Part shown: positions 1-32,178 of the stretch, in pieces
Layout of the letters: every line of letters begins with the position of its first letter
How positions within the stretch are numbered: the stretch's first letter is position 1
IMG/VR virus record: IMGVR_UViG_3300006793_000074
Coordinates: 1 to 42,971 of that record
Origin: a virus
Reading direction: 5' to 3' (one strand)
Length of the DNA stretch: 42,971 bases
Notes under the pieces: generated by a model
The model's database searches: none
Told to the model about the DNA's origin: nothing
The model's input: only the letters and a program-made list of their open reading frames with translations
Program-made: the position numbers and the translations under genes

Positions 1-125
1 ATCGACATTGTGCTAGTGATAGCATGTTTGAGAATGACGATGGCTTTTTTGACAACTGGAAATACGAAGTGAACGCATTTAATGTAGTTTTCACTTCAAT
101 GAAACCGTTGTTTACCTCACAATAA
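1..125 (+). CDS. C-terminal end of an unidentified protein (partial)
   Basis: An open frame runs in from the window edge (first full codon at base 3) and stops at TAA 123-125, giving about 40 residues. The visible part is acidic then aromatic and hydrophobic, with DNWKYEVNAF near the middle, and ends in TSQ. No family motif can be recognised in so short a piece. It lies 32 bases upstream of the AAA ATPase on the same strand and may share its transcript. That it is coding rests only on the open frame and the tight spacing to the next gene. Confidence 0.45.
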   Translation, partial: RHCASDSMFENDDGFFDNWKYEVNAFNVVFTSMKPLFTSQ

Positions 126-157
126 TAAAATACCCCATTATATCTAAGGAGCGAATT

Positions 158-1204
158 ATGTCAAACTTTGTATACATTCATAAAGGTGTCCATGCTGGAA
201 AAGAAGTTAGCGGATATTTTCCGTTGGCAAAGGAAGATCCAAGTTATGGTAAGGGCGGAATGTTTCTTACTGTTGATGGAACGTTCAGGCCTACTGAGTT
301 TCCGGCTCGAAACATTCGAGTTAAAATTGAGAACGTGATGGCGTATCAGACTGCCACAGAAGAAGAAGCAATGGAGGCCCAAGAGTCTGTTTCAGCAGAC
401 TTTGTGAAGCCTAGAGCGCCGAAAGTGGTTGAAGAAACCGACGAAGAGGTTATGAATCGCATTGAAGAACGTTTCAGCATCCTTAACGAAATGACTGAAG
501 CATCCATCAACGGTGACGTCCGCGCAATGATTGTCACAGGCCCTCCGGGTGTTGGTAAGTCATACGGTGTTGAAACAACTCTCGAAAAGGCTTCACTGTT
601 TGACAAAATCAAAGGCACTCGTACGCGATACGATGTTGTAAAGGGTGCGATGACTGCTCTCGGACTGTACGCTAAACTGTACGAGTACAGCGATCGCGGT
701 AACGTGCTAGTGTTTGATGACTGTGACTCCGTGCTGTTTGATGATTTGTCGTTGAACATTCTTAAAGCGGCACTGGACTCCGGCAAACGGCGTAGAATTT
801 GTTGGAACGCTGATAGTGCTAAACTTCGGTCCGAGGGTATTCCTAACTCGTTCGACTTCCATGGTTCGGCAATCTTTATTACTAACGTAAAGTTTGAGAA
901 CGTCCGCTCTAAGAAAGTCAAGGACCATTTAGAAGCACTCCAGTCACGTTGCCACTACTTGGACCTTACACTGGACACGATGCGCGACAAGACTCTTAGA
1001 ATTAAGCAGATTGCCAAAAGTGGTGAATTGTTTAAAGGCTATAAACTGAACGACGAAGCCCAGCAAGAAGTTCTTGACTATATGGACGAAAACAAAGACA
1101 GACTGCGAGAAGTGTCGCTACGCACCGCTCTTAAGATTGGTGACTTGCGTAAACTGTCTAAAAACAACTGGAAGCGTATGGCTGAGGTTAGCATACTTAG
1201 ATAA
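158..1204 (+). CDS. AAA-family ATPase
   Basis: A 348-residue protein with a Walker A motif GPPGVGKS (about 128-135), a Walker B VLVFDD (183-188), a sensor-1-like stretch ending FITN (about 240) and an SRC tripeptide (263-265) of the kind that carries an arginine finger in AAA proteins. The first 100 residues are a phage-specific N-terminal region. The start is well supported by AAGGAG about 8 bases upstream. T4-like marine phages carry comparable single-domain AAA proteins of unknown role. SRC recalls the clamp loader gp44, but the spacing and the rest of the protein do not fit gp44 well, so I leave it as an AAA ATPase. A strong terminator follows. Confidence 0.8.
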   Translation: MSNFVYIHKGVHAGKEVSGYFPLAKEDPSYGKGGMFLTVDGTFRPTEFPARNIRVKIENVMAYQTATEEEAMEAQESVSADFVKPRAPKVVEETDEEVMNRIEERFSILNEMTEASINGDVRAMIVTGPPGVGKSYGVETTLEKASLFDKIKGTRTRYDVVKGAMTALGLYAKLYEYSDRGNVLVFDDCDSVLFDDLSLNILKAALDSGKRRRICWNADSAKLRSEGIPNSFDFHGSAIFITNVKFENVRSKKVKDHLEALQSRCHYLDLTLDTMRDKTLRIKQIAKSGELFKGYKLNDEAQQEVLDYMDENKDRLREVSLRTALKIGDLRKLSKNNWKRMAEVSILR

Positions 1205-1220
1205 CCAAAGCCACTTAGGT

Positions 1221-1247
1221 ACTTATTGCGCCGCTCCTGCGATAAGT
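1221..1247 (+). other. Intergenic RNA hairpin between ATPase and next gene
   Basis: ACTTATTGC and GCGATAAGT form a 9-bp stem (one G-U pair) around a 9-base loop in the 86-base gap after the ATPase gene. There is no T tract directly after it, so alone it is not a terminator. It lies just upstream of the terminator hairpin at 1261 and could protect the 3' end of the upstream mRNA. Confidence 0.45.
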
Positions 1248-1260
1248 AACTATAACACTC

Positions 1261-1287
1261 GGGGAGGCCTAGTGTCTCCCCTTTTTT
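1261..1287 (+). terminator. Rho-independent terminator after the AAA ATPase gene
   Basis: GGGGAG (1261-1266) pairs perfectly with CTCCCC (1276-1281) over a 9-base loop and is followed by six T (1282-1287). This is a textbook intrinsic terminator. The next gene starts at 1291, almost on top of the T tract, so that gene needs readthrough or its own promoter. Confidence 0.85.
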
Positions 1288-1290
1288 ATT

Positions 1291-2319
1291 ATGACAAAGC
1301 CTGCTAAAGTTTATATAGAAGAAAATACCATCTACTTAAAACTTCCGTTCACTATGACGGGGTTGGATAATACCGAACAGTTTAGCACGGCAGATGTCCC
1401 GCGTCGTTTATTCTCGCATGGTAAAAGTAATAAAACTGATGTTACATGGAACGTACGAAAGAAGGCATGGGCATTTAGTTTTACTGAAGATAATCTATTT
1501 TTTATTCAAAATTTTTTAGAAAGTCTTAACGTTACAAATATAGAGTATAGTGATGAAGTTTTAAAATACCAAACTGAGGTGTATAGTATAAAAAATTCTC
1601 CAGAGGAGTATAATGTAGAACTTTGCGTTGATAATGACTTAAAACCTTATATTAAAAATGCGTCAGATTCACTACTTAAATATTTAAATGATGAGCAATT
1701 AACTGATCTTTGGATGCTAATAGACAAGTCATATGAGTTAGGTTATGGTTTAAGCGACAAAGTAAAACTAATGATCGGAGATTCAGTAGAGCATGTAATG
1801 GTATCTAATAGTAGAGTCTCTCTTGGTGGTACTCTAAAAGAAAAAGAAAAGAAGTTAAAAAGTATACTAATGTATGCCTTAAAATATAACAGGCTACCGA
1901 TTGTATTCCATTCTCCAGAAAGGTTATTGTTTGGCGCAAAATCAGTTACTGGTGTGTCTAAAAGTAAGAAGCCTATCGCATTAAACCATGCAAAGGTAGT
2001 AGATCCCCAATTTGATCCGATGGTTTTTAAAGTAATAAGACAACTTATGAAAGAGGAATCAGTCGGAGAGGCAAAACGCTTTGGTAAGAAAGATTGCTTA
2101 GTATACTATTCACATACAGCACAAGACTTGATCGAAAGCGAAATAAATCCTCAGATAATATTTTTTACCAGAATGGTCAATGAAAGAACATTTAATATAT
2201 TTCTTGACCATATACCAAAAGTGTGTTATTATAATACTGTAAACTCTCCCCTCGACGAAGAAAGTAATAGATTATTAATGGAACTAGGACCTGGCAACGA
2301 ATATTATGCCAAAATGTAA
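1291..2319 (+). CDS. Unknown protein encoded immediately before UvsW
   Basis: A 342-residue protein with no motif I can name confidently. The first 80 residues contain a WNVRKKAWAF-like stretch resembling the small N-terminal substrate-binding domains that precede SF2/SNF2 helicase cores, but no Walker A or DEAD-type motif follows. The rest is mixed alpha/beta. Its 3' end overlaps the start of uvsW by 14 bases, so the two are translationally coupled and probably act together. A degenerate or partner subunit of the UvsW system is possible but is inference. The start codon lies 4 bases after a terminator T tract and no clear ribosome-binding site is visible. Confidence 0.65.
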   Translation: MTKPAKVYIEENTIYLKLPFTMTGLDNTEQFSTADVPRRLFSHGKSNKTDVTWNVRKKAWAFSFTEDNLFFIQNFLESLNVTNIEYSDEVLKYQTEVYSIKNSPEEYNVELCVDNDLKPYIKNASDSLLKYLNDEQLTDLWMLIDKSYELGYGLSDKVKLMIGDSVEHVMVSNSRVSLGGTLKEKEKKLKSILMYALKYNRLPIVFHSPERLLFGAKSVTGVSKSKKPIALNHAKVVDPQFDPMVFKVIRQLMKEESVGEAKRFGKKDCLVYYSHTAQDLIESEINPQIIFFTRMVNERTFNIFLDHIPKVCYYNTVNSPLDEESNRLLMELGPGNEYYAKM

Positions 2320-3757
2320 ATTATATTTAAAAGACGAAGTTAACTGTAAGTTTGAAGGATTAGACTTGCTCGAAAGAAGAAAACTAGTCGAAAAATTTAA
2401 GTTTGATATTCCCCACGCACGTTTTATGCCAGCAGTACGTTTAGGACGCTGGGACGGTAAAGCGTCTTTCTTTAATCTTGGCGGTAGCACTTATACAAAT
2501 CTACTTGGTGAGATACTGCCACTGTTAGACAGTTATAAGATAGAACTTATAGACTATAGAAATCCCATAGAGTTAAACTTTGACAAAGTAACTGCTGAAA
2601 GTTACAGTCATGTAACATGGCCCGAGGGACATACACACGAAGGGAAACCTATCGTTTTGCGTGACTACCAAATAGATGTTATTAATCGCTTTTTAGAAAA
2701 CCCACAGTCCATACAAGAAGTAGCAACAGGCGCAGGTAAAACACTTATTACTGCCGCACTTAGTAATGTTTGTGAGAAGTATGGACGCACTATTGTTATT
2801 GTTCCAAACAAAAGCCTTGTAACGCAGACAGAAGAGGACTACATAAACTTAGGACTTGACGTGGGTGTGTTTTATGGCGATAGAAAAGAGTATGGCAGAA
2901 CGCATACTATTTGTACTTGGCAGAGTTTAAACATACTTACAAAGAAAACTCGCAACGCCCAAGTAGACATTACTATCGAAGACTTTATCGAAGGTGTAGT
3001 GTGCATTATGGTAGACGAAGTACATATGAGTAAAGCGGATGTGCTGAAACAATTACTAACGCAACAGTTTGCCCACGTGCCTATACGTTGGGGATTAACA
3101 GGCACAATACCAAAAGAACAATATGAATGGATGTCACTGAAAGTCAGCATTGGCGATGTAGTAAACAGAATTGCAGCCGCAGATCTACAAGATAAAGGTG
3201 TTTTAGCCAACTGTCACGTTAATATAGTACAACTTAATGACTACGGAGAATATAATAACTATCAGAGTGAATTAAAATATCTTCTTAACGATGAGGGTAG
3301 ACTTGATTACATAAGTGGTTTCATTGACAATGTTAAAGAAAGTGGAAATACTTTAATACTTGTTGATAGAATTAGTGCTGGCAAATCATTGGAAAGTAAA
3401 ATTGATAATAGTGTTTTTGTTAGCGGGTCAACAAAAGCAGATGAAAGAAAAGAACATTATGATGATGTTAAAACTTCTGATGCTAAAATTATTATAGCAA
3501 CATATGGCGTTGCGGCAGTTGGCATTAACATACCGCGTATCTTTAATCTAGTATTACTGGAACCTGGAAAGAGTTTTGTGAGAGTGATACAGAGTATTGG
3601 ACGTGGTATACGTAAAGCAGAAGATAAAGATTTTGTACAGATATGGGATATTACTAGTACGTGTAAATATGCTAAAAGACACTTAACAAAAAGAAAGTCT
3701 TTTTACAGGGAAGCGGAGTATCCATTTACAGTCGAAAAAATTAAATGGCAAGGATAA
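2306..3757 (+). CDS. uvsW: UvsW-type SF2 DNA helicase
   Basis: A 483-residue superfamily 2 helicase, close to the length of T4 UvsW. Visible motifs are the LRDYQ Q-type motif (about 118), Walker A ATGAGKT (140-146), DEVH box (237-240), motif III GLTGT (263-267) and a motif VI QSIGRGIRK near residue 435. The N-terminal 90 residues, including RLGRWDGK, match the small DNA-binding domain of UvsW. In T4, UvsW unwinds branched DNA and R-loops and helps switch origin-dependent replication to recombination-dependent replication. The gene overlaps the upstream unknown by 14 bases and is followed 13 bases later by a coiled-coil protein. Confidence 0.92.
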   Translation: MPKCKLYLKDEVNCKFEGLDLLERRKLVEKFKFDIPHARFMPAVRLGRWDGKASFFNLGGSTYTNLLGEILPLLDSYKIELIDYRNPIELNFDKVTAESYSHVTWPEGHTHEGKPIVLRDYQIDVINRFLENPQSIQEVATGAGKTLITAALSNVCEKYGRTIVIVPNKSLVTQTEEDYINLGLDVGVFYGDRKEYGRTHTICTWQSLNILTKKTRNAQVDITIEDFIEGVVCIMVDEVHMSKADVLKQLLTQQFAHVPIRWGLTGTIPKEQYEWMSLKVSIGDVVNRIAAADLQDKGVLANCHVNIVQLNDYGEYNNYQSELKYLLNDEGRLDYISGFIDNVKESGNTLILVDRISAGKSLESKIDNSVFVSGSTKADERKEHYDDVKTSDAKIIIATYGVAAVGINIPRIFNLVLLEPGKSFVRVIQSIGRGIRKAEDKDFVQIWDITSTCKYAKRHLTKRKSFYREAEYPFTVEKIKWQG

Positions 3758-3770
3758 TAAATAATAAGCA

Positions 3771-4250
3771 ATGAGTTCACAAGTTAGCGATCTTTATAAA
3801 AAGTATAATGACCTGGTCGACCAGTTTAATGATCTAAAAAAAGCAAACAAAGATATATTAGACCAGGTTGACAAAGTCAAACTAGAAAATAAAGATTTAC
3901 AATCCGAAATTATATTACTAGTAAAGCAAATGGCTACACTAGAAAAACTTGTTCATACAAAGTATATGAACTCTGGTCCCGGTGCTCCTGCTCCTAAAGC
4001 ATATGAGGTAAATTACGATGACGCCGGAAATCCACAAAAACCAATTTATCAACCACGGATCATGAGTGGAAAAAAACAGGCAGATATGTTAAAAAAGCCA
4101 CAGTCCAAAGACAGATCTCACCAATATTATGTAGTTAATCCGCGAACAAAGCAAATAGTAAGAAATCCAGATTATCACAAACCCCGTGACAATGACCCAG
4201 TAGATACACAAGATCATGATGATTTTGGTGATGATGACGTACCATTTTAA
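3771..4250 (+). CDS. Coiled-coil protein with an SSB-like acidic C-terminal tip
   Basis: A 159-residue protein in two parts. Residues 4-65 are rich in K, D, E and L at heptad spacing and should form a coiled coil. After a Pro/Gly/Ala-rich stretch the chain becomes polar and probably disordered, and it ends in DDFGDDDVPF. Bacterial SSB proteins end in DDDIPF or close variants; that tip is the docking peptide for RecQ, RecO, PriA, exonuclease I and others. No OB-fold is evident, so this is not an SSB. The gene directly follows uvsW, which fits a recruiting role at replication or recombination sites. Family unknown. Confidence 0.7.
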   Translation: MSSQVSDLYKKYNDLVDQFNDLKKANKDILDQVDKVKLENKDLQSEIILLVKQMATLEKLVHTKYMNSGPGAPAPKAYEVNYDDAGNPQKPIYQPRIMSGKKQADMLKKPQSKDRSHQYYVVNPRTKQIVRNPDYHKPRDNDPVDTQDHDDFGDDDVPF

Positions 4251-4271
4251 AATTTTAAAAGAGAAAAATCA

Positions 4272-4772
4272 ATGAGAATATTAACGTTAGACAACGAAGC
4301 CTATGCTATGAATACAATGCCTGAAAAGGTAGATGATGTGAGATTTTGTATTCTTGATAACAGTAATCCAGCCGACGCAGATTACTTTTTTATACCACTT
4401 ATCTTTTTAGAGTCCTTCAATGCTCCTGCGGTGGTAATTAAACTTGGCGATCATAAGATTGCTATGCCTGTAGATTGGCATGTGGTAGTAGGCAGTCCAG
4501 AAGTCGGAGATCTTGAAGTGCTTCCACTTACAAGTGTCAATGACAGAGGATTTGAAGCGTTTATGTATAATCCACTAAGTGGTTATATGCATAGTTACAA
4601 GGAAATTGATATTGTCGACATTTACACTGAAGTTAAGTGGTACTTTCCAAAACTTAAAACTGGACAACTACTTTGCGTTCCACTACATGATGGACCTAAA
4701 CCACAGTGTGCTTACTTTGTGAGTGAGATTAATAAGCAATCCGAAATTATTGACGTTACTCAAGTAATGTAA
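4272..4772 (+). CDS. Conserved-looking phage protein of unknown function
   Basis: A 166-residue soluble protein of mixed alpha/beta character with no recognised catalytic motif, signal peptide or membrane segment. It starts at ATG 14 bases after a GAGAAAAA purine stretch. Its last base A is shared with the ATG of the next gene (TAATG junction), so the two are translationally coupled. The interior is hydrophobic and regular (for example MPVDWHVVVGSPEVGD), suggesting one compact domain. No function can be given. Confidence 0.65.
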   Translation: MRILTLDNEAYAMNTMPEKVDDVRFCILDNSNPADADYFFIPLIFLESFNAPAVVIKLGDHKIAMPVDWHVVVGSPEVGDLEVLPLTSVNDRGFEAFMYNPLSGYMHSYKEIDIVDIYTEVKWYFPKLKTGQLLCVPLHDGPKPQCAYFVSEINKQSEIIDVTQVM

Positions 4773-5053
4773 TGGATAAAATAATAGAGTTTTGGAAAGA
4801 ATCGTACTATAGCGATAAGATAGCATTTGTATATGAACTTATAAGTTTTGTTTTTACGGTCTTTGCTAGTTTAAATTTAGCACTTACAGCAGATGAACCT
4901 AATATGCTATTAGTATATCCCGGCTTTCTTGTAGGATCAATAACAGGCATTTATGCATACTATAGACGCAAACTTGCTTGGCCAGTATTGCTTACAGGTT
5001 ACTTTGCTGTTGTAAATGTAATAGGAATAGGTGTAGCGGCAGGCTGGTGGTGA
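4772..5053 (+). CDS. Small membrane protein with about three helices
   Basis: A 93-residue protein with hydrophobic segments at about 18-38, 46-63 and 70-90, separated by short charged loops (YYRRK around 64-68). The size and spacing recall truncated PnuC-type transporters and other small phage inner-membrane proteins, but no diagnostic motif is present. It starts on the last base of the previous gene and its TGA stop overlaps a GTG start for the next gene (GTGA), so it sits in a tightly coupled cluster. Location in the inner membrane is predicted; function unknown. Confidence 0.6.
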   Translation: MDKIIEFWKESYYSDKIAFVYELISFVFTVFASLNLALTADEPNMLLVYPGFLVGSITGIYAYYRRKLAWPVLLTGYFAVVNVIGIGVAAGWW

Positions 5054-5577
5054 AAGCGTTAGTAATAGGCAATGGCGAAAGCCGTAAGCAAATAGATTTA
5101 AACTTGTTTAAACGCGACGAGTGGGAAATATATGGTTGCAATGCGTTATATAGAGAGTTTGTTCCGGACCATTTAGTAATACTTGACTCACCAATGCGAG
5201 AAGAGTTTGAGCAAAGTAGTGTTAAAATAGCAAATGTTCATTATATAGAGAATATATCCGAGTATGAACCTATGATGAATTCGGGTGTAATAGCAATATT
5301 AATAGCAATGCGAACGCATAGCGAAATACACTTAGTCGGGTTCGACCTAGAAGATAGTGGTGGTAGAGTAAATAATATATACAACGACACAGAAAATTAT
5401 TATAATAGTAATAAAGAATCCGGTGGTTTTATTATCGAACAATATAACATTAAAGCAGTTTGTAATAGATTTAACGGCAAAATAATTAGAGTTGCTGATA
5501 ACAATCCTTTTGAACTTGACAAATACGTAGAAAATGTTACAATAAAAGAGTACGTAAAAGGATTTAAGAATGGCTAA
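5050..5577 (+). CDS. Rossmann-like protein, possibly related to DUF115/MptE-type proteins
   Basis: I choose GTG 5050, which overlaps the upstream TGA as GTGA, giving 175 residues; longer readings extend into the membrane-protein gene. The protein opens (V)KALVIGNGESRKQID, a beta strand with a GNGES loop, then WEIYGCNALYREFVPDHLVILD. This layout of a glycine-rich loop, an acidic strand end and GVIAILIAM later is seen in small phage Rossmann-like proteins related to the DUF115/MptE superfamily (nucleotide- or sugar-binding). The substrate is unknown. It overlaps the next gene by 8 bases. Confidence 0.65.
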   Translation: MKALVIGNGESRKQIDLNLFKRDEWEIYGCNALYREFVPDHLVILDSPMREEFEQSSVKIANVHYIENISEYEPMMNSGVIAILIAMRTHSEIHLVGFDLEDSGGRVNNIYNDTENYYNSNKESGGFIIEQYNIKAVCNRFNGKIIRVADNNPFELDKYVENVTIKEYVKGFKNG

Positions 5578-6037
5578 ACCATCAGTGCTACCGTTATATG
5601 AAGTGTTTAACGCAATAGATAAGAAAGACTATCGCTGGTATAAATCATTAAGCAAAGAAAAGCAAAAGGCATTTAGCCCTTATCTACAACTTAAATATTC
5701 CGCAAGTGCAACAGGCTCCAATGAATTACAAGAGTATATGGTTCGCGCAACTAATAATGGATTAAACATTAACTTTTGGGAAGTAAGTAAGCATCCCGAC
5801 TTAACTTACAAAATACTTTGCGCTATCAATCCTGGCATTGGGAAGTTTCAACGCAAGTATCTAACAATGAAAAAAGAAACAAAGGATAATAAGAAAACTA
5901 AGTTTCTTAAAGAGATATACCCAACTTGGAAACTTAGTGATATTGAAGCATATGCCCAAATGTGCGATAAAAAAGAACTTAAAAAATTAGCAATTGATCA
6001 TGGATACGACGACAAGTCAATCAAAGAGTGGTTATGA
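5570..6037 (+). CDS. 62: gp62-like clamp-loader small subunit (probable)
   Basis: A 155-residue all-helical protein. An N-terminal NAIDKKDYRWY stretch, a SPYLQLKYSAS block, a central basic patch (KFQRKYLTMKK) and a C-terminal LSDIEAYAQMCDKKELKKLA element resemble, in order and size, gp62 of T4-like marine phages. gp62 is the non-ATPase subunit that, with gp44, loads the gp45 sliding clamp. gp44 and gp45 are not in this window. It starts inside the end of the upstream gene and its last 38 bases overlap the zinc-finger gene. The assignment rests on remembered family pattern, so confidence is moderate. Confidence 0.55.
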   Translation: MAKPSVLPLYEVFNAIDKKDYRWYKSLSKEKQKAFSPYLQLKYSASATGSNELQEYMVRATNNGLNINFWEVSKHPDLTYKILCAINPGIGKFQRKYLTMKKETKDNKKTKFLKEIYPTWKLSDIEAYAQMCDKKELKKLAIDHGYDDKSIKEWL

Positions 6038-6701
6038 ATGTAAGTACTGCAACAGAAGTTTCGCTAGAGAAAAAACACTAGCGGCTCATGTATGTGAGCA
6101 AAAGCGCAGACATTTACAGAAAGACGAAAAGCACGTACAAATAGGTATGATTGCTTATAGGCGATTCTATGAACTGACACAAGGGTCTGCAAACTTTAAA
6201 GATTATCAGCATTTTGCTAGTAGCCAATATTATAATGCGTTCGTAAAGTTTGGCAAACACATTATGAGCATCAATGCTATTAACCCAGACTTCTTTATTG
6301 ATTATGTTATTAAAAGTAATACTAAATTAGATAATTGGTGTAAAGACTCTGTATATGAAGATTACTTATTGCCGTATATTAAAACAGAAAATGCTAGAGA
6401 CGCTTTAGAGCGTAGTATACTCAATATGGAGAACTGGGCAAATAATAATAACTCTGTGTTTAATCATTTCTTTAGGTATGTGAGTTTTAACAAAGCAGTG
6501 GCATTAATACGCAACGGCAAAATAAGTCCTTGGACAATATATCACAGTGAAACGGGTATGGATATGTTGTCTAAGATGAGTGATGAGCAGTTAGGATTAA
6601 TAAACGAATTCATTGATCCTGTTTATTGGAGTAAAAGATTTGAAGCATTCCCAGCAGACGTCGAATGGGTTAAACACATTTTAAGTGAAGCAAAAATATA
6701 G
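6000..6701 (+). CDS. Zinc-finger protein of unknown function
   Basis: ATG 6000 is the most likely start; a TTG six bases earlier is possible. The first 40 residues hold a C2H2-like finger: C14, C17, then H30 and either C32 or H38 (CKYCNRSF then AAHVC). The remaining roughly 190 residues are helical and soluble with no nuclease or polymerase motif that I recognise. Small single-finger proteins of this type occur among T4-like marine phage replication genes. Nucleic-acid binding is likely and the target unknown. It overlaps the gp62-like gene by 38 bases, which supports co-translation. Confidence 0.7.
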   Translation: MDTTTSQSKSGYECKYCNRSFAREKTLAAHVCEQKRRHLQKDEKHVQIGMIAYRRFYELTQGSANFKDYQHFASSQYYNAFVKFGKHIMSINAINPDFFIDYVIKSNTKLDNWCKDSVYEDYLLPYIKTENARDALERSILNMENWANNNNSVFNHFFRYVSFNKAVALIRNGKISPWTIYHSETGMDMLSKMSDEQLGLINEFIDPVYWSKRFEAFPADVEWVKHILSEAKI

Positions 6702-6710
6702 GAGAAAATA

Positions 6711-6893
6711 ATGACAGACAATGTAGTAGATTTTGATATAAGATTATTAAGAAAAAGACATAAAGAACTAGACAGCATGATTTGGGAACTGGAGGGGCAA
6801 GATCTTGCCGAAACTCATGTCAGACTGACGGAACTTAAAAAGGAAAAGTTACATCTTAAAGATAAAATAGCATTTATGGAAAAAACTGGATAA
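6711..6893 (+). CDS. Small DUF465/YdcH-like helical protein
   Basis: A 60-residue protein with a good ribosome-binding site (AGGAG, 8-9 bases before ATG). It contains LRKRHKELD near the start and LKKEKLHLKDKI near the end, the two signature helices of DUF465/YdcH proteins, which are about 55-75 residues long, form helical hairpins and are common in proteobacteria. The function of that family is unclear. Acquisition from a bacterial host is plausible. It sits between the zinc-finger gene and the DnaE-like gene with spacers of 9 and 4 bases. Confidence 0.6.
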   Translation: MTDNVVDFDIRLLRKRHKELDSMIWELEGQDLAETHVRLTELKKEKLHLKDKIAFMEKTG

Positions 6894-6897
6894 TAAA

Positions 6898-7470
6898 ATG
6901 AGTAAGGTTAATTTTGACATTGACATAGACTTGGCTGATAGAAGCAAAGTTCTCAATGCAATGCCTAACCATACACCTGCGGGCATTATACGTAATAACA
7001 CTTTAATAAAGCATAATACTGGTGTTTACTTTACAGATGTTCCAATGGATCCTATAAAAGGAGTATGCTCGCTCGACCACAAGGATGCGGAAGAGCGAGG
7101 ATACGTTAAGTTGGATTTACTTAATGTTAACTTATATAACCAAGTACAGAGCGAAGAACATTTAATTGATCTAATGTTTACAGAACCTCCGTGGGAAAGA
7201 CTTGCTGAGAAAGAATACACCGAGCAGATTATACATATTGGCAATCATTATGAACTAGTAAAGCAAATGATGCCGGATAGTATTCCTAGAATGGCGATGT
7301 TTTTGGCAGTAATACGCCCTGCTAAACGCTATCTAGCAAATAGAACGTGGAAGGAAATAGGACAAGAAGTTTGGACAGTACCAAATGATTCTAATGCGTA
7401 TTATTTTAAGAAAAGCCACTCTGTGGGCTACGCACACTTAGTAGTTGTGCATATGAATCTATTGAGATAG
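6898..7470 (+). CDS. Short protein with DnaE-palm-like motifs
   Basis: A 190-residue protein with FDIDIDLADR at 6-15, HNTGVYFTDVP at about 39-49 and EERGYVKLDLLNV at about 66-78. In bacterial DNA polymerase III alpha (DnaE/PolC) a PDIDIDF..R strand is followed by an H..GVV..P element and then by an E.GLLKMDFLGL element in the same order. The similarity is read by eye; a full polymerase would need over 1000 residues, so this cannot be one. It could be a non-catalytic derivative. Its last 12 bases overlap the 3' end of the convergent minus-strand gene. Confidence 0.6.
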   Translation: MSKVNFDIDIDLADRSKVLNAMPNHTPAGIIRNNTLIKHNTGVYFTDVPMDPIKGVCSLDHKDAEERGYVKLDLLNVNLYNQVQSEEHLIDLMFTEPPWERLAEKEYTEQIIHIGNHYELVKQMMPDSIPRMAMFLAVIRPAKRYLANRTWKEIGQEVWTVPNDSNAYYFKKSHSVGYAHLVVVHMNLLR

Positions 7471-8562
7471 CGGTGGTTCTTCCTGTACGTCTCTGGCAGA
7501 TATTGTAGAGAGTTTTTTAAATAAAGGACCAGTTTCAACAAACATTCTGTGCCTTTCCGGAAGAGATTTACCACTTGAACTAACTCTCGGGGCACTATAC
7601 GTATATCTAATTTTAAATAAAAGAAGTTGACTCCCCTTTTCATAAACCGCTACTTCCGGCCGACCCTGAGTTCCTGCTGTTCCCTTTGCATAACGAAATG
7701 CACTTTCTAAATCTACACTTGGTAAATTCTTTTTCATTGTTCTAATTGTCTGAGCAGAATAATCTTTGTTTCCTAAATTAACAATATAAACTCTAGGATC
7801 TTTCATCGCAATATGGTGATTTAAGAAGTTTGAAACATTGTCAATTAGTAAACCTTCTTTTTGTGTATTGTCTCCAGCAGTAAAACTATTAAGATCGTTT
7901 GCTACTTGTTTCATAATATTTAGAACATGTTTTTGTGGATCTGTATTATAATTTTTAATAGGCTTTAATGTAATTCCTAGTTCTTTAAAGAACTGTTGCA
8001 TATTTTCAAACGTTCTCGGAGATGCTTGCCCTACTAAGTTACTTCCTGTTTTTAAACTCCAGCCCTTAACCTGCTTTTCAGATCCGTCTGGTCTTTTATA
8101 AATTAAGAAAATATCTGCCTTTGTACCTTTTTGATCTTCTTCCCCGGCAGCCTTGACAACTAGACGATCAGGCTTTCCATTTTCTGCAAAAAGCCTTGCA
8201 TATTTTGTTGCATATATATCGCTATTAGCAAATTTAACTGCTCCCTCTAATTCATCTGCCATAAGCGTAGTTAATGATTTAACATCCCTAGCGTCATCTA
8301 TATTTTTTTGGTTTTTAATAATATTAATAAATTCAATAATATCTCCTTGAGCTCCTTTGAACTTAGCAGATAAATTTTCTTTTTTAGAGGTTGCGGTGAT
8401 TATTGCCTTTGCATCTTTAATAGAGATGTTTTTATCACCGGCTTTCATTTTTGCTACAACCGCGCTACCTAACAAATATTCTCCCATGTGCCCACGTGAA
8501 GAACCATGTGGTAACTTGTCAGACAATGCTTTTTCTGTTAAATTAAACTCTTTAAGACGCAT
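7459..8562 (-). CDS. PD-(D/E)XK-like nuclease candidate with capsid-targeting-type leader
   Basis: A 367-residue minus-strand protein. E28 (in GEYL), D150 (TKADIFLIY) and S169-L-K171 (GWSLKTGS) match the E...D...(E/S)xK pattern of many type II restriction-like nucleases; KADI plus WSLKTG is especially typical. Active-site identity is inference. The N-terminus MRLKEFNLTE-K resembles the T4 internal-protein leader ending in L-x-E. A late box TATAAATA lies on the minus strand only 5 nt before ATG, so it should be expressed late. Together these suggest a nuclease carried in the virion. It overlaps the convergent plus-strand gene by 12 bases. Confidence 0.6.
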   Translation of the reverse strand: MRLKEFNLTEKALSDKLPHGSSRGHMGEYLLGSAVVAKMKAGDKNISIKDAKAIITATSKKENLSAKFKGAQGDIIEFINIIKNQKNIDDARDVKSLTTLMADELEGAVKFANSDIYATKYARLFAENGKPDRLVVKAAGEEDQKGTKADIFLIYKRPDGSEKQVKGWSLKTGSNLVGQASPRTFENMQQFFKELGITLKPIKNYNTDPQKHVLNIMKQVANDLNSFTAGDNTQKEGLLIDNVSNFLNHHIAMKDPRVYIVNLGNKDYSAQTIRTMKKNLPSVDLESAFRYAKGTAGTQGRPEVAVYEKGSQLLLFKIRYTYSAPRVSSSGKSLPERHRMFVETGPLFKKLSTISARDVQEEPPLSQ

Positions 8563-8567
8563 AATTG

Positions 8568-8575
8568 TATTTATA
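8568..8575 (-). promoter_or_regulatory. T4-type late promoter box (minus strand), 5 nt before ATG
   Basis: TATTTATA on the plus strand is TATAAATA read on the minus strand, a perfect match to the T4 late box. It lies in the 15-base gap between the radical SAM gene and the nuclease-like gene, with 5 bases between box and ATG. T4 late transcription begins about 6 bases after the box, so the mRNA should start at the A of ATG. No ribosome-binding site is present. Confidence 0.7.
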
Positions 8576-8577
8576 CA

Positions 8578-9891
8578 TTATGGCTTGTGGATCTCTTCGT
8601 AGATTATAGGGAAAAGTTCTCTGTAATCTGTTCCGCGTCTGCGATCCAGTTCAGTAAGATAACGATGTAATTCTTGTTGTTGAAACTTGTCAGGGGTTTC
8701 GTTTTCTATAGATTTTTTAATACCTTCAAAGTATGTGTGTGCTTTGCCAATAGACCCGTTTGCCGTGTCATTGCCGGCTATTTTGCTTAACTTATCTAGC
8801 GATTCATTGTAACCCCAATCTAGTATCTTGGATCCAAATATTCTAGGATGCATAAAATCTTTACCACTCACTTGCATTAAACTGATATTAATACCCCAGG
8901 GTCTGCCTGCCGCCACTGTTAAATCAGTCCATTCTTGGTATTTGTCTATTAATTCAGGCATAGTAAAAGTAGATATATTGGACCAACATATGTTAATGCT
9001 TCCCATTATTTTCTTACTTTTTATATTGGATATATATTTAAAATTTTTGTCAAACAGAGAAGTGTCGAGCCCAAACCTTACATATTCTGCTTGCTCGTTC
9101 CAGCAGTCAATACTACCAACAATACTTACTTCATATATTTTGCCATTCTCTGCTAACCCAACTAATCTGTCTATTTTTTCCTGTGCTTTGTCTGTTGACA
9201 AGTTACTAAAAAAATGTAGACGCATGTTTTTAAACTTGTCACCGCTATTGTCAATGAGATCTAGTAGCCGGTCAGATTGTGGCTGAATAAAAGGTTCCCC
9301 ACCTAAAATATACAAACTTCTAAGATATTGTCCTTTTTCTTCCAAGTACTCAAATACTTTGTCCAAATATTTTAATTCTTGGAAGTTCTCTTTGCCTGGC
9401 AAATCTGATGGTACCATAAAATTATGGATGTCACCGTATTTTTTATTTTCAGACTCCCATGTACTACTAAAGTGAGAACCACAGTAAGTGCATGATAGTT
9501 GGCAAAGGTTACTAAAATATATTTCAAGTTGTGTAGGAGTAACATGAACAGCATTTGGATCTTTTACTAATTCCACAGGTGATGAAGGTGCATACTCAAG
9601 TTCGTCATGCAACAATCTGTCACTCATGCCACCTGCTTGTTCAATAACTCTACAATGCTCACAGCCAAGTTCTGGCCATTCGTTTCGTAACATTTGTAAT
9701 CTTGCGTGTACTTTTTGGTGAGTATTATGGAAATCAAAATCCTCTGTGATTGGATTATGATCACACCTGTGGCAACTAGCAGTAGTGTTTGTCGTTAGAA
9801 AAACAGTACTAAGAGACCATTTTAATCTGCATTGTAGGTCAGATTGTTTTTCATTAATAATATTATTTTTGTGTACTTTTATAGTAGACAT
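8578..9891 (-). CDS. Radical SAM enzyme (twitch/SPASM-like cysteine cluster)
   Basis: A 437-residue protein with the radical SAM cluster motif CxxxCxxC at C130, C134, C137 (CQLSCTYC) and the SAM-binding GGEP at 197-200. Upstream of the core lie two further cysteine pairs, CHRC (about 40-43) and CEHC (77-80), likely ligands of an auxiliary iron-sulfur cluster as in twitch-domain enzymes. Such proteins are known from marine T4-like phages but their substrates are not. It follows the 124-residue unknown by one base and precedes the nuclease-like gene on the same strand. Frames on the other strand inside it are shadows. Confidence 0.85.
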   Translation of the reverse strand: MSTIKVHKNNIINEKQSDLQCRLKWSLSTVFLTTNTTASCHRCDHNPITEDFDFHNTHQKVHARLQMLRNEWPELGCEHCRVIEQAGGMSDRLLHDELEYAPSSPVELVKDPNAVHVTPTQLEIYFSNLCQLSCTYCGSHFSSTWESENKKYGDIHNFMVPSDLPGKENFQELKYLDKVFEYLEEKGQYLRSLYILGGEPFIQPQSDRLLDLIDNSGDKFKNMRLHFFSNLSTDKAQEKIDRLVGLAENGKIYEVSIVGSIDCWNEQAEYVRFGLDTSLFDKNFKYISNIKSKKIMGSINICWSNISTFTMPELIDKYQEWTDLTVAAGRPWGINISLMQVSGKDFMHPRIFGSKILDWGYNESLDKLSKIAGNDTANGSIGKAHTYFEGIKKSIENETPDKFQQQELHRYLTELDRRRGTDYRELFPIIYEEIHKP

Positions 9892-9892
9892 A

Positions 9893-10267
9893 TTATTTTA
9901 CTTTTTGCACTAATTGAATGTTTCTGCGCTTCGTTCTTCGTTGGGCTAATTCGTTCATACTAACGTAAGGTCCGTGAACTATCTCTACATCCTTGGCCAT
10001 AAATGTTTTAATGTATGGTTTGAAAGGAGTAAACTCTTTCTTAAGAAAAATATTGATTGGAAATAGCCTATTGGATTCCCACCACCAAACATCTCCTAAT
10101 TCTAAGAATTTTTGTTTAATTTCCAAATTTGGAAGCAAATCGTAATCGTATATACTAACAATGTTAGCATCTTTGTTTAAGATAATTCCAACAAACTCTT
10201 TGTCAGCATACTTAATATAACTTATAAATGGATATTTTTCTGTTAGTTCTTGATAAATGTTAGTCAT
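9893..10267 (-). CDS. Unknown protein, first gene of the minus-strand island
   Basis: A 124-residue soluble protein with aromatic clusters (GDVWWWESNRLFP) and a basic C-terminal tail (AQRRTKRRNIQLVQKVK). It has no motif I recognise. It is divergent from the structural gene at 10304 with 36 bases between the two start codons, and its stop is one base from the ATG of the radical SAM gene, so the two are probably one transcript. A role as partner or substrate of the radical SAM enzyme is conceivable but there is no direct evidence. Confidence 0.6.
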   Translation of the reverse strand: MTNIYQELTEKYPFISYIKYADKEFVGIILNKDANIVSIYDYDLLPNLEIKQKFLELGDVWWWESNRLFPINIFLKKEFTPFKPYIKTFMAKDVEIVHGPYVSMNELAQRRTKRRNIQLVQKVK

Positions 10268-10275
10268 ACGATTTT

Positions 10276-10283
10276 AATAAATA
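10276..10283 (+). promoter_or_regulatory. Weak late-promoter-like box before structural gene
   Basis: AATAAATA, one base from TATAAATA, lies 20 bases before ATG 10304 with AAAGGA between them, the same arrangement as the clear late promoters at 13493 and 16506. ATAAATA is common by chance in AT-rich DNA, so this is tentative. Confidence 0.35.
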
Positions 10284-10303
10284 TAGTAAAGGATTTTAAT
10301 AAA

Positions 10304-11080
10304 ATGCTAGTTACTACAGTCTATTTATATGACCAAATTGTTAACTTAAAAATTAAGGTTGACACTGACAAACAACACTGGGGGTATGAGATGTACAATC
10401 ATCCGATTAAACTATACAAGGGTATTGATAATACGATACAAATACAAATTAAAAATGATAACCAAAAAACATTAACTATTACAGACAAGACAGTTACTTT
10501 TAATGTTTTAAATTCGTCCGATGGAACAAGCGTTTTATTAAGTAAAACAGCAACTATAGTTGACGGAATTAACGGAAAAGTTAAGGTTGTTGTTACCGAA
10601 GGTGATTTATTAAACTTAGATAGTCAGTATCTAAACTACTCAGTGAAGGTTGTAGATGGAGAAAATAATCAAATGATTGGTTATGTAGATGGCGCGTATG
10701 ATGTTATTGGCCAATTGCAAATTTTAGATGGTGTATTTCCAGACGTGAAGGATAGTTTGGCATTAAACCTAGCAGACTTCACAGCAAGTGGAGGAACATA
10801 TACTAGTAATCCGTTAGTAGCAGAATCAAAACTAAACCAAAATTCAGGATTACATACTGCCGCATTTTATGTAAATGGATATAGCGGTGACATCGTTGTA
10901 CAGGCTACTCTAAGCGATAATGTTGCTCCAGCACCAACCGACTACTTTGACATTAAAACTGTGACATTGGCCAGTAAAACCGGCATTTCTTATACAAACT
11001 GGAACGGTGTATATAACAGAGTTCGATTCGTGCATACTCCTACAGCGGGAAGTATGGAAAAAATTCTATACCGTTCTTGA
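10304..11080 (+). CDS. Probable virion structural protein (Ig-like/baseplate type)
   Basis: I choose ATG 10304, preceded by AAAGGA, rather than an upstream alternative at 10250; the protein is then 258 residues beginning MLVTTVYLYDQ. It is rich in beta-strand patterns, with VTFNVLNSSDGTSVLL and LNYSVKVVDGENNQMIGYVDG resembling the N-terminal beta-sandwich of BppU-like baseplate proteins, followed by a second beta-rich half. No enzyme motif is present. The -35 element of the next promoter contains its TGA stop codon. A baseplate or neck role is inference. Confidence 0.6.
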   Translation: MLVTTVYLYDQIVNLKIKVDTDKQHWGYEMYNHPIKLYKGIDNTIQIQIKNDNQKTLTITDKTVTFNVLNSSDGTSVLLSKTATIVDGINGKVKVVVTEGDLLNLDSQYLNYSVKVVDGENNQMIGYVDGAYDVIGQLQILDGVFPDVKDSLALNLADFTASGGTYTSNPLVAESKLNQNSGLHTAAFYVNGYSGDIVVQATLSDNVAPAPTDYFDIKTVTLASKTGISYTNWNGVYNRVRFVHTPTAGSMEKILYRS

Positions 11081-11105
11081 CATATAACCCATAATACTAT
11101 ATAAT
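11077..11105 (+). promoter_or_regulatory. Perfect sigma70 promoter for the primase-helicase pair
   Basis: TTGACA (11077-11082), a 17-base spacer and TATAAT (11100-11105) are consensus at every position. The stop codon of the upstream gene is inside the -35 box. Only 6 bases separate the -10 from ATG 11112, so transcription should begin on or next to the start codon and the mRNA is predicted to be leaderless. A host-polymerase promoter fits early or middle replication genes. Confidence 0.85.
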
Positions 11106-11111
11106 AGTACT

Positions 11112-12095
11112 ATGAACTTAGTACAGTCAGTTATTATGAATAGTTTGCCAGGAAAGGTAAAGAAAAGTTCTAGTGGCTGGAATTCATTTAATGCTCCTTG
11201 TTGTGTACACAACGGCGAAACGCGAGACTCTCGAAGTAGAGGGGGTATTATACTAAATGGCGAAGCAATATCCTATAACTGTTTTAACTGTGGATATAAG
11301 ACAGGATGGCAACCCGGAAGACCATTAGGCAGAAAACTTAGGCAGTTGATGGACTGGATGGGTGTAGCAGAATCAGAGATTAAACGTCTGGTGCTTACCG
11401 CAATACAGTTAAAAGAAACTGCTATTGAACACGGATTAATTGAAGAAGAAGTAGAGATTAATTTTGAGCCTACTGACTTTCCAGAGCAGTGTGATCCATT
11501 ACAAAGTGATAATACTCAAATTGTGGAGTATTTGGTAAACAGGGGGTTAAGTATTAATGACTATCCGTTTTACTGGACACCAGTAACAACAGCAAGATTT
11601 AACAAAAGAGTAGTTATACCCTTTTTATGGAAAAATAACATTGTAGGCTATACGGCTCGTTTAACAGAGAAAGGCAATCCTAAATACTTTAATAGTATGC
11701 CGCAAGGATATGTGTTTAACATTGACGCACAAAAAGATGAGCGTAAGTTCGTAATCGTTACAGAAGGCCCATTTGACGCAATTGCTATAGGCGGTGTTGC
11801 TATACTTGGCAGTGATATGAGCGACGCACAGGTAGACTTAATTGAGAGTTTAAATAAGCAAGTTATAATGGTGCCAGACAATGATAGTGCCGGTAATAAA
11901 TTAATACAGCAAGCATTACACCACAAGTGGGATGTAAGTTTTCCAACTTGGCACGATACATGTAACGATATAAATGAAGCAGTAGTAGAATATGGCAGAA
12001 TGTTTACTTTAAAAAGTATATTAGACAATGTAGAAACATCAAGTCTTAAAATTAACTTAATGGCAAAGAAAAAAATTAATGAACAACGAGTATAA
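11112..12095 (+). CDS. 61: DNA primase, T4 gp61 type
   Basis: A 327-residue primase. The N-terminal zinc site uses C30/C31, H33, C57 and C60 (CCVH, then YNCFNCGYKTGW). The TOPRIM domain shows VTEGPFDAIA with the glutamate at 218 and VPDNDSAG (254-261) with the paired aspartates. gp61 makes RNA primers at the T4 fork in complex with the gp41 helicase, which is encoded next and overlaps by 17 bases. No ribosome-binding site precedes ATG 11112, which sits at the predicted transcription start; a second ATG eight codons later also lacks one. Confidence 0.9.
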   Translation: MNLVQSVIMNSLPGKVKKSSSGWNSFNAPCCVHNGETRDSRSRGGIILNGEAISYNCFNCGYKTGWQPGRPLGRKLRQLMDWMGVAESEIKRLVLTAIQLKETAIEHGLIEEEVEINFEPTDFPEQCDPLQSDNTQIVEYLVNRGLSINDYPFYWTPVTTARFNKRVVIPFLWKNNIVGYTARLTEKGNPKYFNSMPQGYVFNIDAQKDERKFVIVTEGPFDAIAIGGVAILGSDMSDAQVDLIESLNKQVIMVPDNDSAGNKLIQQALHHKWDVSFPTWHDTCNDINEAVVEYGRMFTLKSILDNVETSSLKINLMAKKKINEQRV

Positions 12096-22940: not shown

Positions 22941-24068
22941 ATGCCAGCAAGAAACTATAAACAGTGGAACAGGATTCCAGGTAAGATCAACAGTGGTGAG
23001 TATGTTGATAGTCGAATATATTCCGACAAAAAGATATTTGAAGAAGAAATTGAAAAGATATTTTCAAAGGTGTGGGTTCCAGTATGTCACGAATCTGAAC
23101 TACCTAAAACAAATTCTTTTCGTACAATGACTGTTGCGATGCAGCCAATCATTGTAGTTCGTATATCAGATAAAGAGATAAAGGCATATCATAACCAGAG
23201 TATCAGTCAACCTGCTGGCACATTAGCATTAGATATTTACGATGCTTCTCCAATCAGAACCGAAGTCAAGTATGGTGGATTCATATGGGTCACACTAAAC
23301 GAGGAGATGGACAAGACAGTTGAGGAGTGGGCATCAGGATCATTTGATTGTATGCAAAAGTCCCTAGACGCAGAACCGTTGGAGGTCTTTCACTATCACA
23401 AGGCCATCATACCTTGTAACTACAAACTTTGGCATGACACCAACTCGGAGTTTTACCATGACTATCTACACTACCACAATCGTGTAACAGGGTTCAATGA
23501 CTCCTACTTTGCTCGTAAGAATATTGGATTTGATAACGGACACATAAATGTAGGCTCATTTGAGGTTCAGTATGACCAGTATGAAGGTTCTGAATCTAGG
23601 GATGAGTTATCGTTTCCGCATTTACCTGCTAATCACTGGGAGATGATTGACTTCTTTCCTGGTGTCAACTTTAACCTACGAGGGTCAGCACTACGATGTG
23701 ACATTATGACACCAATTGCACCAGACAAGGTGATGATTGAGTTTCGTGGTCTAGGTCTAAAGAGTGACACACCGAAAGAGCGTTTGATTAGACAACGGCA
23801 CCACAATAGTATTTGGGGACCGTTTGGTCGTAACCTACATGAGGACTTACTTGCAGTAAGCACACAACAGGCTACAATGAATGAGTATGCGGATGCTCGC
23901 AGAATTCTACACGGCCGACATGAGGTTGATGCTGATGGTGATCCAACAATTCACGATGAGGAAGGTATGCGTCACTTTTATGATGAATGGGGCCAATGGA
24001 TGAATCGATGGGCAGGCAACCCCGACCTGACCTATAAAGAAGGAGTAAACGAGGGAATGATTGGGTAA
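22941..24068 (+). CDS. Rieske-type oxygenase catalytic protein lacking Rieske cluster ligands
   Basis: A 375-residue relative of ring-hydroxylating oxygenase alpha subunits. KVWVPVCHESELP (43-55), AYHN (82-85) and YGGFIWVTL (111-119) are landmarks of the N-terminal Rieske domain, but the CxH and CxxH ligand pairs that should lie between AYHN and YGGFIW are absent; that segment is some 50 residues short. The mononuclear iron site looks intact: DTNSEFYHDYLHYH with H173 and H177 or H179, and D302 in LHEDLLAVSTQQ. The codons look richer in G+C than the neighbours, hinting at recent transfer. No leader motif; gaps of 2 and 49 bases to its neighbours. Confidence 0.75.
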   Translation: MPARNYKQWNRIPGKINSGEYVDSRIYSDKKIFEEEIEKIFSKVWVPVCHESELPKTNSFRTMTVAMQPIIVVRISDKEIKAYHNQSISQPAGTLALDIYDASPIRTEVKYGGFIWVTLNEEMDKTVEEWASGSFDCMQKSLDAEPLEVFHYHKAIIPCNYKLWHDTNSEFYHDYLHYHNRVTGFNDSYFARKNIGFDNGHINVGSFEVQYDQYEGSESRDELSFPHLPANHWEMIDFFPGVNFNLRGSALRCDIMTPIAPDKVMIEFRGLGLKSDTPKERLIRQRHHNSIWGPFGRNLHEDLLAVSTQQATMNEYADARRILHGRHEVDADGDPTIHDEEGMRHFYDEWGQWMNRWAGNPDLTYKEGVNEGMIG

Positions 24069-30163: not shown

Positions 30164-30694
30164 ATGAAAATAGAGTTAACTGTTACCGGCGCGTTCTGTA
30201 ACACTTGGCCTGATCTTACCATACAGCAAAACGACAATGTCGTTTTTTGTAATGCTATAAAAAACACTACTATCATTAGTCTAACACTAGACTATGCCCC
30301 TTTTTCTGTGGGTATGCAAAATAAAAATTTTGGGAACAACAACGTGTGGGACACACTAGTAGATCAAGATAATAATATTCTAGCAGACAAATTAATTACT
30401 GTAAATGAATTTCTACTAGATGATGTAAGTATTTTGTCTTTACTACCATCAATTGAATACACAGACGCTTTGAGTTCAGCCTCGAAATTTATTACTGATT
30501 GCACAATAAGATACAATGGATTTTGGAAATTTGATATAAGTAGTAATGCTTATGATTATATTATAGATATTAAAAATAGTATGAATCACAATATCAAGAA
30601 AGAAGTCAATTATCAAAGCGATGTTTCTAATATTGGAAATTACGATGATCATTATGCTATTATGCAAAAAATAAAAAGTGCTTTAAATATATGA
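30164..30694 (+). CDS. Unknown protein between nuclease and radical SAM genes
   Basis: A 176-residue protein, beta-rich at the N-terminus (KIELTVTGAFCNTWPDLTIQ) and rich in N, D, Y and I. The C-terminal half is helical and asparagine-rich. The opening resembles small beta-sandwich or carbohydrate-binding folds, but no conserved site is evident. Its stop overlaps the ATG of the first radical SAM gene by 4 bases, so it is coupled to the radical SAM pair and could be their partner or substrate; that is speculation. Confidence 0.55.
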   Translation: MKIELTVTGAFCNTWPDLTIQQNDNVVFCNAIKNTTIISLTLDYAPFSVGMQNKNFGNNNVWDTLVDQDNNILADKLITVNEFLLDDVSILSLLPSIEYTDALSSASKFITDCTIRYNGFWKFDISSNAYDYIIDIKNSMNHNIKKEVNYQSDVSNIGNYDDHYAIMQKIKSALNI

Positions 30695-32178
30695 AAAATA
30701 TCGTAGTATCAATTCCGCAGATTGAAGTCCACCGCCCGCCTATCAGTACAGCAATTATTGCTAGTGTAATACAACACGAAAAACAAGAAGTAACATGCAT
30801 AGATTTAAATATCGAACTTTTTAAAAAAGTAGGCAATAAAGAATTTTATAATTTAGGTAACGTTTGGGAATCTCTTAGAGTAATAACTGACGAAGAAGTA
30901 AAGACCGTAAAGGAATTAATTAAAGATAAGTTAATATCAAACATCGACGACAACACAAGAGTGCTTATAAGTGTTTTCACTTATGATAGCCTTTTATTTG
31001 CTAAAATGACTTGCGAGGCAATTAGAGAACACACTGTAAAGTGCCAAATTGTATTGGGCGGACAAGGAGTTAACTCACCAGGTGATGCACGGAGTGGAAG
31101 GAAGAACAGTGGTGAATATTTCTTGCGTGAAAATTTGTGCGACTATGTTATTTTTGGCGAGGGAGAAACAGTACTGAAAGAGTTTTTAAGAGGAAATGTA
31201 ACCCATCCAGGCATTAATTATCCAGAGAACTTAAATCAAGTTAATGATTTAGACACACTCCCATTCCCCAACTATAAATTTTATAATTTGGATAATTACG
31301 ATTACTTAGAAGAAGAGACAGAGGTTAACATTGTAGGAAGTAGAGGGTGTGTTCGTAAATGTACGTATTGTGATGTTGGTCATTACTGGCCAAAATTTAG
31401 ATATAGATCTGGATATAACATTGCAAACGAAATGATTAATCATTATGAAAAACATGGCATTACTAAATTTTATTTTACAGATAGTCTAATTAATGGAAGT
31501 TTAAAAGCATTTAATAGCATGTGCGAAAAACTTGCAGTTTATAATCAACAGCACGACGTAGGCTTTAGTTGGAGCGGACAATTTATTTTTAAGCCCAAAC
31601 GACAAATATCAGATGAGTATTTTGACATGATTGCTGATGCCGGCGGCAATACTTTTTTTGTTGGTGTCGAAACAGGCAGTGATAAAATACGCTGGGAAAT
31701 GGACAAAAAGTTTTCCAATGAAGATATTGATTACCATTTAGAAAATTTTAAAAGAACAGGCCTGCGTTGTTTCTTTTTAATGATTGTTGGTTATTTAACA
31801 GAGACATTGCAAGACCATCGAGACAGTTTACAAATGTATGAACGCTGGCAAAAATATGTTGCTAGTGGAACTATAACGGGTATAGATTTAAACAAGACGC
31901 TGGATATCTTATCAAATACTCCATTAGAGAGAATGATAAGTTCGCATGGTGTGAAGTTTTTGTGTTACGAGAAAGATTTCACAGGAAAAAAAGGACCAGT
32001 TACTTCTACTTGGGAAAGCAGTGCTAATCCAGAATTAACTTTTAGGGAAAGAATAAGACGAAGATTGGAAGTCGAAGATACAGCAATTAAATACAGATGG
32101 CCTATTATTCGAGGAACAGAAAGATTACAAGGCGTATATAATCTTTCAAAACTTTTTGTTGAACAAGAAAATGTATGA
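30691..32178 (+). CDS. Radical SAM enzyme with B12-binding-type N-terminal domain
   Basis: A 495-residue protein. Residues 1-190 form a Rossmann-type domain (strand IVVSIP, then VLISVFTYDS and CQIVLGGQGVNS, DYVIFGEGE) as in cobalamin-binding radical SAM enzymes, although the classical DxHxxG base is not evident. The cluster motif CxxxCxxC is C220, C224, C227 in GCVRKCTYC. A TIM-barrel part with FVGVETGSDKIR (about 323-334) follows. The substrate is unknown. Members act as methyltransferases, methylthiotransferases or cyclases. It overlaps the next radical SAM gene by 8 bases, indicating a two-enzyme operon. Confidence 0.85.
   Translation: MKNIVVSIPQIEVHRPPISTAIIASVIQHEKQEVTCIDLNIELFKKVGNKEFYNLGNVWESLRVITDEEVKTVKELIKDKLISNIDDNTRVLISVFTYDSLLFAKMTCEAIREHTVKCQIVLGGQGVNSPGDARSGRKNSGEYFLRENLCDYVIFGEGETVLKEFLRGNVTHPGINYPENLNQVNDLDTLPFPNYKFYNLDNYDYLEEETEVNIVGSRGCVRKCTYCDVGHYWPKFRYRSGYNIANEMINHYEKHGITKFYFTDSLINGSLKAFNSMCEKLAVYNQQHDVGFSWSGQFIFKPKRQISDEYFDMIADAGGNTFFVGVETGSDKIRWEMDKKFSNEDIDYHLENFKRTGLRCFFLMIVGYLTETLQDHRDSLQMYERWQKYVASGTITGIDLNKTLDILSNTPLERMISSHGVKFLCYEKDFTGKKGPVTSTWESSANPELTFRERIRRRLEVEDTAIKYRWPIIRGTERLQGVYNLSKLFVEQENV

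Follow-up and report, generated by a model that had tools for sequence, protein, structure and literature searches.

The C-terminal tips of the single-stranded DNA-binding protein (SSB) are the main switchboard of bacterial DNA repair and replication. In phage T4 the recombination mediator is UvsY, whose gene is often found near uvsW. The bacterial tip (SSB-Ct, MDFDDDIPF in E. coli) combines acidic residues with a terminal Pro-Phe and is connected by a disordered linker to an oligomerising domain. Partner binding of E. coli SSB is abolished without the terminal Phe and weakened by a Pro to Ser exchange (PMC10164576). Phage replication proteins carry the same device, as seen for gp32-type SSBs ending in DDDLPF (PF08804/phrog_1192; L128, L139, L144 and others). 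The SSB tail has also been moved to another scaffold in the engineered chimera PriB-SSBc, which stimulated PriA (PMC8509808). A search of the open-access literature, with subscription journals outside its scope, turned up no phage protein that bears an SSB tip naturally without being an SSB. Thus, while the tip itself is established as a docking device, its presence on a coiled-coil phage protein lacking an OB fold appears to be undescribed in that literature.

The window, i.e. the whole analysed stretch of 42,971 nucleotides of the viral record IMGVR_UViG_3300006793_000074, contains an ORF at 3771-4250 whose product of 159 amino acids ends in ...HDDFGDDDVPF. A first-pass annotation had pointed to the SSB-type ending DDFGDDDVPF, which is indeed present in the translation, and to a position directly after uvsW, in agreement with the gap of 13 bp to the helicase ORF 2306-3757, which matches T4 UvsW (PDB 2oca, E 2e-25). 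The features are as follows.

2306-3757, plus strand: UvsW-type SF2 helicase, immediate upstream neighbour (match to T4 UvsW and to SF2 helicase families)
3771-4250, plus strand: coding sequence of the coiled-coil protein with SSB-type C-terminal tip, 159 aa (ATG start; homologues in syntenic position in L003-L011 and L104-L111)
3771-3968, plus strand: N-terminal coiled-coil helix, aa 1-66 (AlphaFold helix 2-66, heptad test, invariant columns)
3969-4127, plus strand: variable Pro/Gly-rich linker, predicted disordered, aa 67-119 (pLDDT, composition, length differences among homologues)
4128-4163, plus strand: predicted beta-hairpin, aa 120-131 (AlphaFold strands, L106 model, invariant residues)
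4185-4247, plus strand: acidic disordered tail, aa 139-159, ending in the tip (AlphaFold, composition)
4230-4247, plus strand: SSB-Ct-like tip DDDVPF, aa 154-159 (final PF invariant among homologues)
4272-4772, plus strand: conserved phrog_11279 protein, downstream neighbour (PHROG match)

With moderate confidence we read this product as an oligomeric presenter of SSB-type tips that has no OB fold, acts in the recombination-replication module of the phage and would recruit host SSB-interacting enzymes.

Predicted architecture of the protein

AlphaFold, run on the family alignment, predicts residues 2-66 as a single continuous helix (pLDDT about 96). One heptad register with a period of 3.48 spans the whole helix, 15-16 of its 18 a/d positions being hydrophobic (permutation p <= 2e-4), and 32 of the 66 helix columns are invariant among seven distinct homologues, including ENK-x-LQSEIILLVKQ-x-A-x-LEK. 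From the modelled helix we infer that several chains would be held together by a coiled coil. Scans against Pfam and PHROG gave nothing above weak coiled-coil matches for the 159 aa protein, so that by sequence no OB fold is present; neither PF00436, PF08804 nor the SSB PHROGs matched, and the model, one helix plus disorder, contains no OB-fold ssDNA-binding domain. A coiled coil in place of the OB fold, as the annotation had supposed, is therefore upheld by the helix, its heptad register and the family scans. No meaningful structural neighbours were found in the PDB, in which the sole sequence match is a myosin coiled-coil construct. Being small, helical and encoded in the uvsW region, the protein resembles UvsY, but it has no match to the UvsY profile (PF11056). 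An identity with UvsY was rejected, as the UvsY-like match, weak and below the cut-off, belongs to a separate ORF upstream in genomes with the coiled-coil gene.

The linker is poorly ordered in the model (pLDDT < 50 at residues 69-82 and 89-113) and, like that of bacterial SSB, carries PxxP motifs (PGAP, PQKP). Its net charge is +7, that of the acidic tail (aa 139-159) -8. Linker length differs strongly among the homologues, with only 7 of 134 linker columns invariant in the seven distinct sequences, and the tail measures between 74 and 136 residues. Strands at 120-122 and 129-131 form the predicted hairpin, from which a conserved K-x-I..NP-x-Y motif extends to aa 135 (invariant residues K127, I129, N132, P133 and Y135). 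The model of the most distant homologue, L106, repeats this plan with a helix at 3-83, disorder, a hairpin at 155-165 and a disordered tail, so that disorder and coiled coil are predicted for the tip-bearing protein in both cases. The modelled layout would thus resemble that of bacterial SSB in its acidic Pro-Phe end, disordered linker and oligomerising domain. It differs from it in the coiled-coil scaffold without OB fold, in the predicted hairpin within the tail, and in one branch of homologues that ends in IPPF with fewer acids adjoining the tip. In contrast to the window protein, PriB-SSBc is man-made and its scaffold is an OB-fold protein. By analogy, the window protein may work like an SSB tail without itself being an SSB, and the parallel layout in the models of two divergent homologues supports the docking reading.

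Conservation and rarity of the ending

Homologues were found in IMG/VR contigs only, namely marine viral contigs, and share about 97% (L003), 93% (L004), 67% (L005-L008), 40% (L011, L104, L105, L111) or 38-39% (L106-L110, including L107) identity with the window protein in the alignment. Neither tblastn of the 159 aa protein against the phage collection nor megablast of window positions 1-12000 gave a match, nor did bacterial genomes scanned with the family profile; the gene is confined to a single phage lineage. Lack of conservation would have spoken against the tip, but in all seven distinct homologues, the most remote at about 38% identity, an acidic stretch precedes a terminal Pro-Phe (DDDVPF, DDDPPF, DQIPPF or EQIPPF), and the last two alignment columns are both invariant. 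As for the extent of the proposed tip DDFGDDDVPF, what is conserved is PF (VPF or PPF) with acidic residues before it, and not the 'DF'. In the L104/L106/L107 branch, which ends in (A/G)(D/E)QIPPF, acids beside the Pro-Phe are fewer, and this weakens the recruiter reading. Nevertheless, a docking motif is well supported by the retention of Pro-Phe in 7/7 homologues against the few invariant linker columns. Since the ending was kept in all relatives found while most of the tail changed, the phage probably uses it to recruit host enzymes or to tie them up.

These endings also bear on another kind of C-terminal peptide. T4-type DNA polymerases and the late-transcription proteins gp33 and gp55 bind the gp45 clamp through their C-termini, and such tails end in hydrophobic residues, several of which are needed. 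An acidic/hydrophobic tail contacting a gp45-like clamp would suit a T4-like module, and the C-terminal position and hydrophobic end are common to both. However, the homologue ends DDDPPF and EQIPPF lack the several conserved hydrophobics of the T4 clamp-binding motif, and what is conserved is the Pro-Phe at the extreme terminus; we regard a clamp-binding tail as the least probable of the explanations.

Six related phage contigs, read as overlapping pieces, yielded 7265 distinct six-frame ORFs of >=40 aa, in which acidic-PF ends (PF preceded by enough acids to give at least 3 in the last 12 residues) were counted. Only three were found, each a member of the coiled-coil family and the sole such ORF in its contig (202, 323 and 235 kb), while the contigs without the coiled-coil gene (G007, G009, G010) contained none. 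A generic acidic tail, or a chance ending without docking function, is consequently very unlikely, given its occurrence in 0 of the 7262 other ORFs and an invariant Pro-Phe in every homologue despite the diverged linker. The one observation in favour of chance comes from the family of small proteins encoded downstream of phrog_11279, which has a tip-like end in 3/42 members only (L016:5476-5772, L018:7025-7264 and L022:2966-3301, ending DNDEDLPF, HNDEDLPF and DDDGVPF), the rest ending otherwise, so that tips can come and go. As a tip carrier this family was set aside as sporadic.

The tip on other viral proteins and on phage SSB

Viral contigs were scanned for DDDxPF ends (x by the codon pattern NTN), giving a sample of at least 77 ORFs of >=60 aa. 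Most of the 77 listed ORFs match single-strand DNA-binding families (14 PF00436, 15 PF08804, others further SSB PHROGs); the few non-SSB proteins among them comprise a phrog_16 helicase, a polymerase processivity factor and three phrog_1811 proteins. The viral helicase ends in DDDIPF and the processivity factor in DDDVPF (L165:4839-6524 and L182:11573-12838). Because the sample consists mostly of SSB families, plus helicase and processivity factor, the DDDxPF tip marks DNA replication proteins. With 15 of the 77 listed ORFs matching the gp32-type SSB family, relatives evidently bear the tip on the SSB itself, as a tip on a phage replication protein comparable to that of the window protein; unlike them, the window lineage has it on another protein.

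The phrog_1811 family comprises helical marine-phage proteins of 73-75 aa, which in a large subclade end in DDDIPF or EDDIPF (L149, L125, L158; L319-L398). Among the closest 80 relatives, which are no census since they were drawn by a query of tip-bearing members, 42 end in PF, 35 of those having three or more acids among their final ten residues; DDDIPF (20) and EDDIPF (13) are the commonest tips. A cultured example is gp31 of Pelagibacter phage HTVC033P (MZ892993.1, 14386-14607), no other acidic-PF ORF occurring in the first 50 kb of the 53 kb genome. Like the window protein, gp31 is a short non-SSB phage protein with a DDDIPF/EDDIPF-type end; unlike it, phrog_1811 proteins measure about 73 aa, have no long linker and are unrelated in sequence (hhalign probability 0.6% between the families). 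Judged from its sequence, phrog_1811 is a second carrier of an SSB-type tip without OB fold, unrelated to the coiled-coil family, and the same tip in an unrelated family supports the docking reading. We propose tentatively, as somewhat less than an even chance, that unrelated phage lineages independently put the SSB tip on helical proteins without OB fold, creating tip-only hubs into the host SSB-interaction network. If true, phage replication would be plugged into this network apart from ssDNA binding, and HTVC033P gp31 offers a cultured model for such proteins.

The SSB of the related phages is gp32-like (PF08804; phrog_1192, E 6e-60). In a phage with the coiled-coil gene it ends in AEDILATIRARQGQ, without the tip, and across contigs carrying the gene the SSB ends are ATIRARQGQ or ATIRSRQNQ. 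The window is a fragment of an uncultured phage, starting downstream of the SSB position in relatives, and the SSB of its phage is deduced from the 67%-identical relatives. The tip is equally absent from the SSBs of marine relatives at greater distance and from those of Ettore, Phosso and 121Q, which are cultured phages. As the phage's own gp32-like SSB is tipless, a separate tip protein could supply the recruitment of host enzymes. On the other hand, G007, G009, G010, Ettore, 121Q and Phosso have SSBs of the same tipless clade and, where checked, no coiled-coil neighbour gene; that these phages manage without it weakens the recruiter reading. A simple tip transfer from the phrog_1192 SSB to the coiled-coil protein was not supported by a search for tip loss and tip gain, since the SSB of the whole clade is tipless even without the coiled-coil gene.

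A conserved C-terminal motif, A-x-[DE]-I-[IL]-x-x-I-R-x-R-Q, is common to the SSBs (phrog_1192) of the window clade and of the PA5oct-like Ettore and Phosso (L091:1390-2334, L238-L248, L314-L316), while the SSB end of 121Q differs. This motif may serve phage partners as a docking element.

Gene neighbourhood and candidate partners

In relatives the coiled-coil gene shares a block with genes for SSB, a RecA/UvsX-type recombinase, the UvsY-like protein and UvsW. Other phages, among them Phosso, Atu_ph07, Cassandra and 121Q, have unrelated genes or none in the slot between uvsW and phrog_11279, and the coiled-coil gene is therefore a lineage-specific addition.

In the proposed mechanism, the coiled coil would assemble chains into an oligomer displaying several tips, each chain projecting a flexible linker and acidic Pro-Phe tail outward. 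The tail would dock in the pocket that receives the SSB C-terminus in bacterial SSB-interacting enzymes, the motif being present and the binding deduced from it. RecQ, PriA, RecO, exonuclease I and the chi subunit of Pol III could in this way be called to sites of phage replication and recombination; as partners, RecQ, PriA, RecO and ExoI are plausible by analogy to the behaviour of the E. coli SSB tip. The coiled coil or the conserved hairpin may anchor the protein to a phage partner, for which SSB, UvsY, UvsW or DNA are candidates. Docking uncoupled from ssDNA binding, serving to borrow or jam host enzymes, is what such a tip-only coiled-coil protein would exemplify.

Jamming would mean that multivalent tips titrate ExoI, RecQ, RecJ, RecO and others off host SSB or phage DNA, with the outcome that phage ends are protected or host repair is crippled. 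The tip motif and the predicted multivalency fit a competitive inhibitor, and a lineage-restricted gene in a slot of varied cargo is expected for host-interaction genes. Yet the gene lies inside the recombination-replication block of the phage, and the strongly conserved helix and hairpin residues would be superfluous for a pure decoy, a role which we consider rather unlikely. Recruiting host SSB-interacting enzymes appears likelier than sequestering them, a choice of role that goes beyond the motif itself.

The tip could instead dock on a phage-encoded partner such as UvsW, a primase or another replication protein, its likeness to the host SSB tip being convergent or secondary. UvsW is the immediate neighbour, the viral phrog_16 helicase that itself bears the tip belongs to the same PHROG as UvsW, and the SSB tip is bound by another SF2 helicase, RadD of E. 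coli (PMC10238739). Against this, the coiled-coil gene is absent from phages with the same UvsW family, and Arg21 of the RadD pocket (positions from PMC10238739) falls on Leu in the window UvsW, a weak point from a rough hand alignment. Furthermore, neither host-type SSB-interacting enzymes nor any known SSB-interacting family occur among the Pfam matches listed for the relative G004, most of whose non-structural ORFs were scanned. A phage partner is thus distinctly improbable, and recruitment of host enzymes remains our preferred reading.

The Pfam matches of G004 (202 kb; L101-L103, L093) include PrkA, SpoVR, DUF444 (YeaH), SbmA/BacA, EF-G, HSP20 and Thy1, a set that resembles the YeaG-YeaH-SpoVR stress set, here on a phage contig. 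In the window, an ORF at 22941-24068 encodes a ring-hydroxylating (Rieske-type) oxygenase; the Rieske profile matched in its first half only, and the iron-sulfur motif may therefore be incomplete. Two radical SAM proteins are encoded side by side at 30691-33448, and a minus-strand ORF at 8578-9891 looks similar to this pair by eye.
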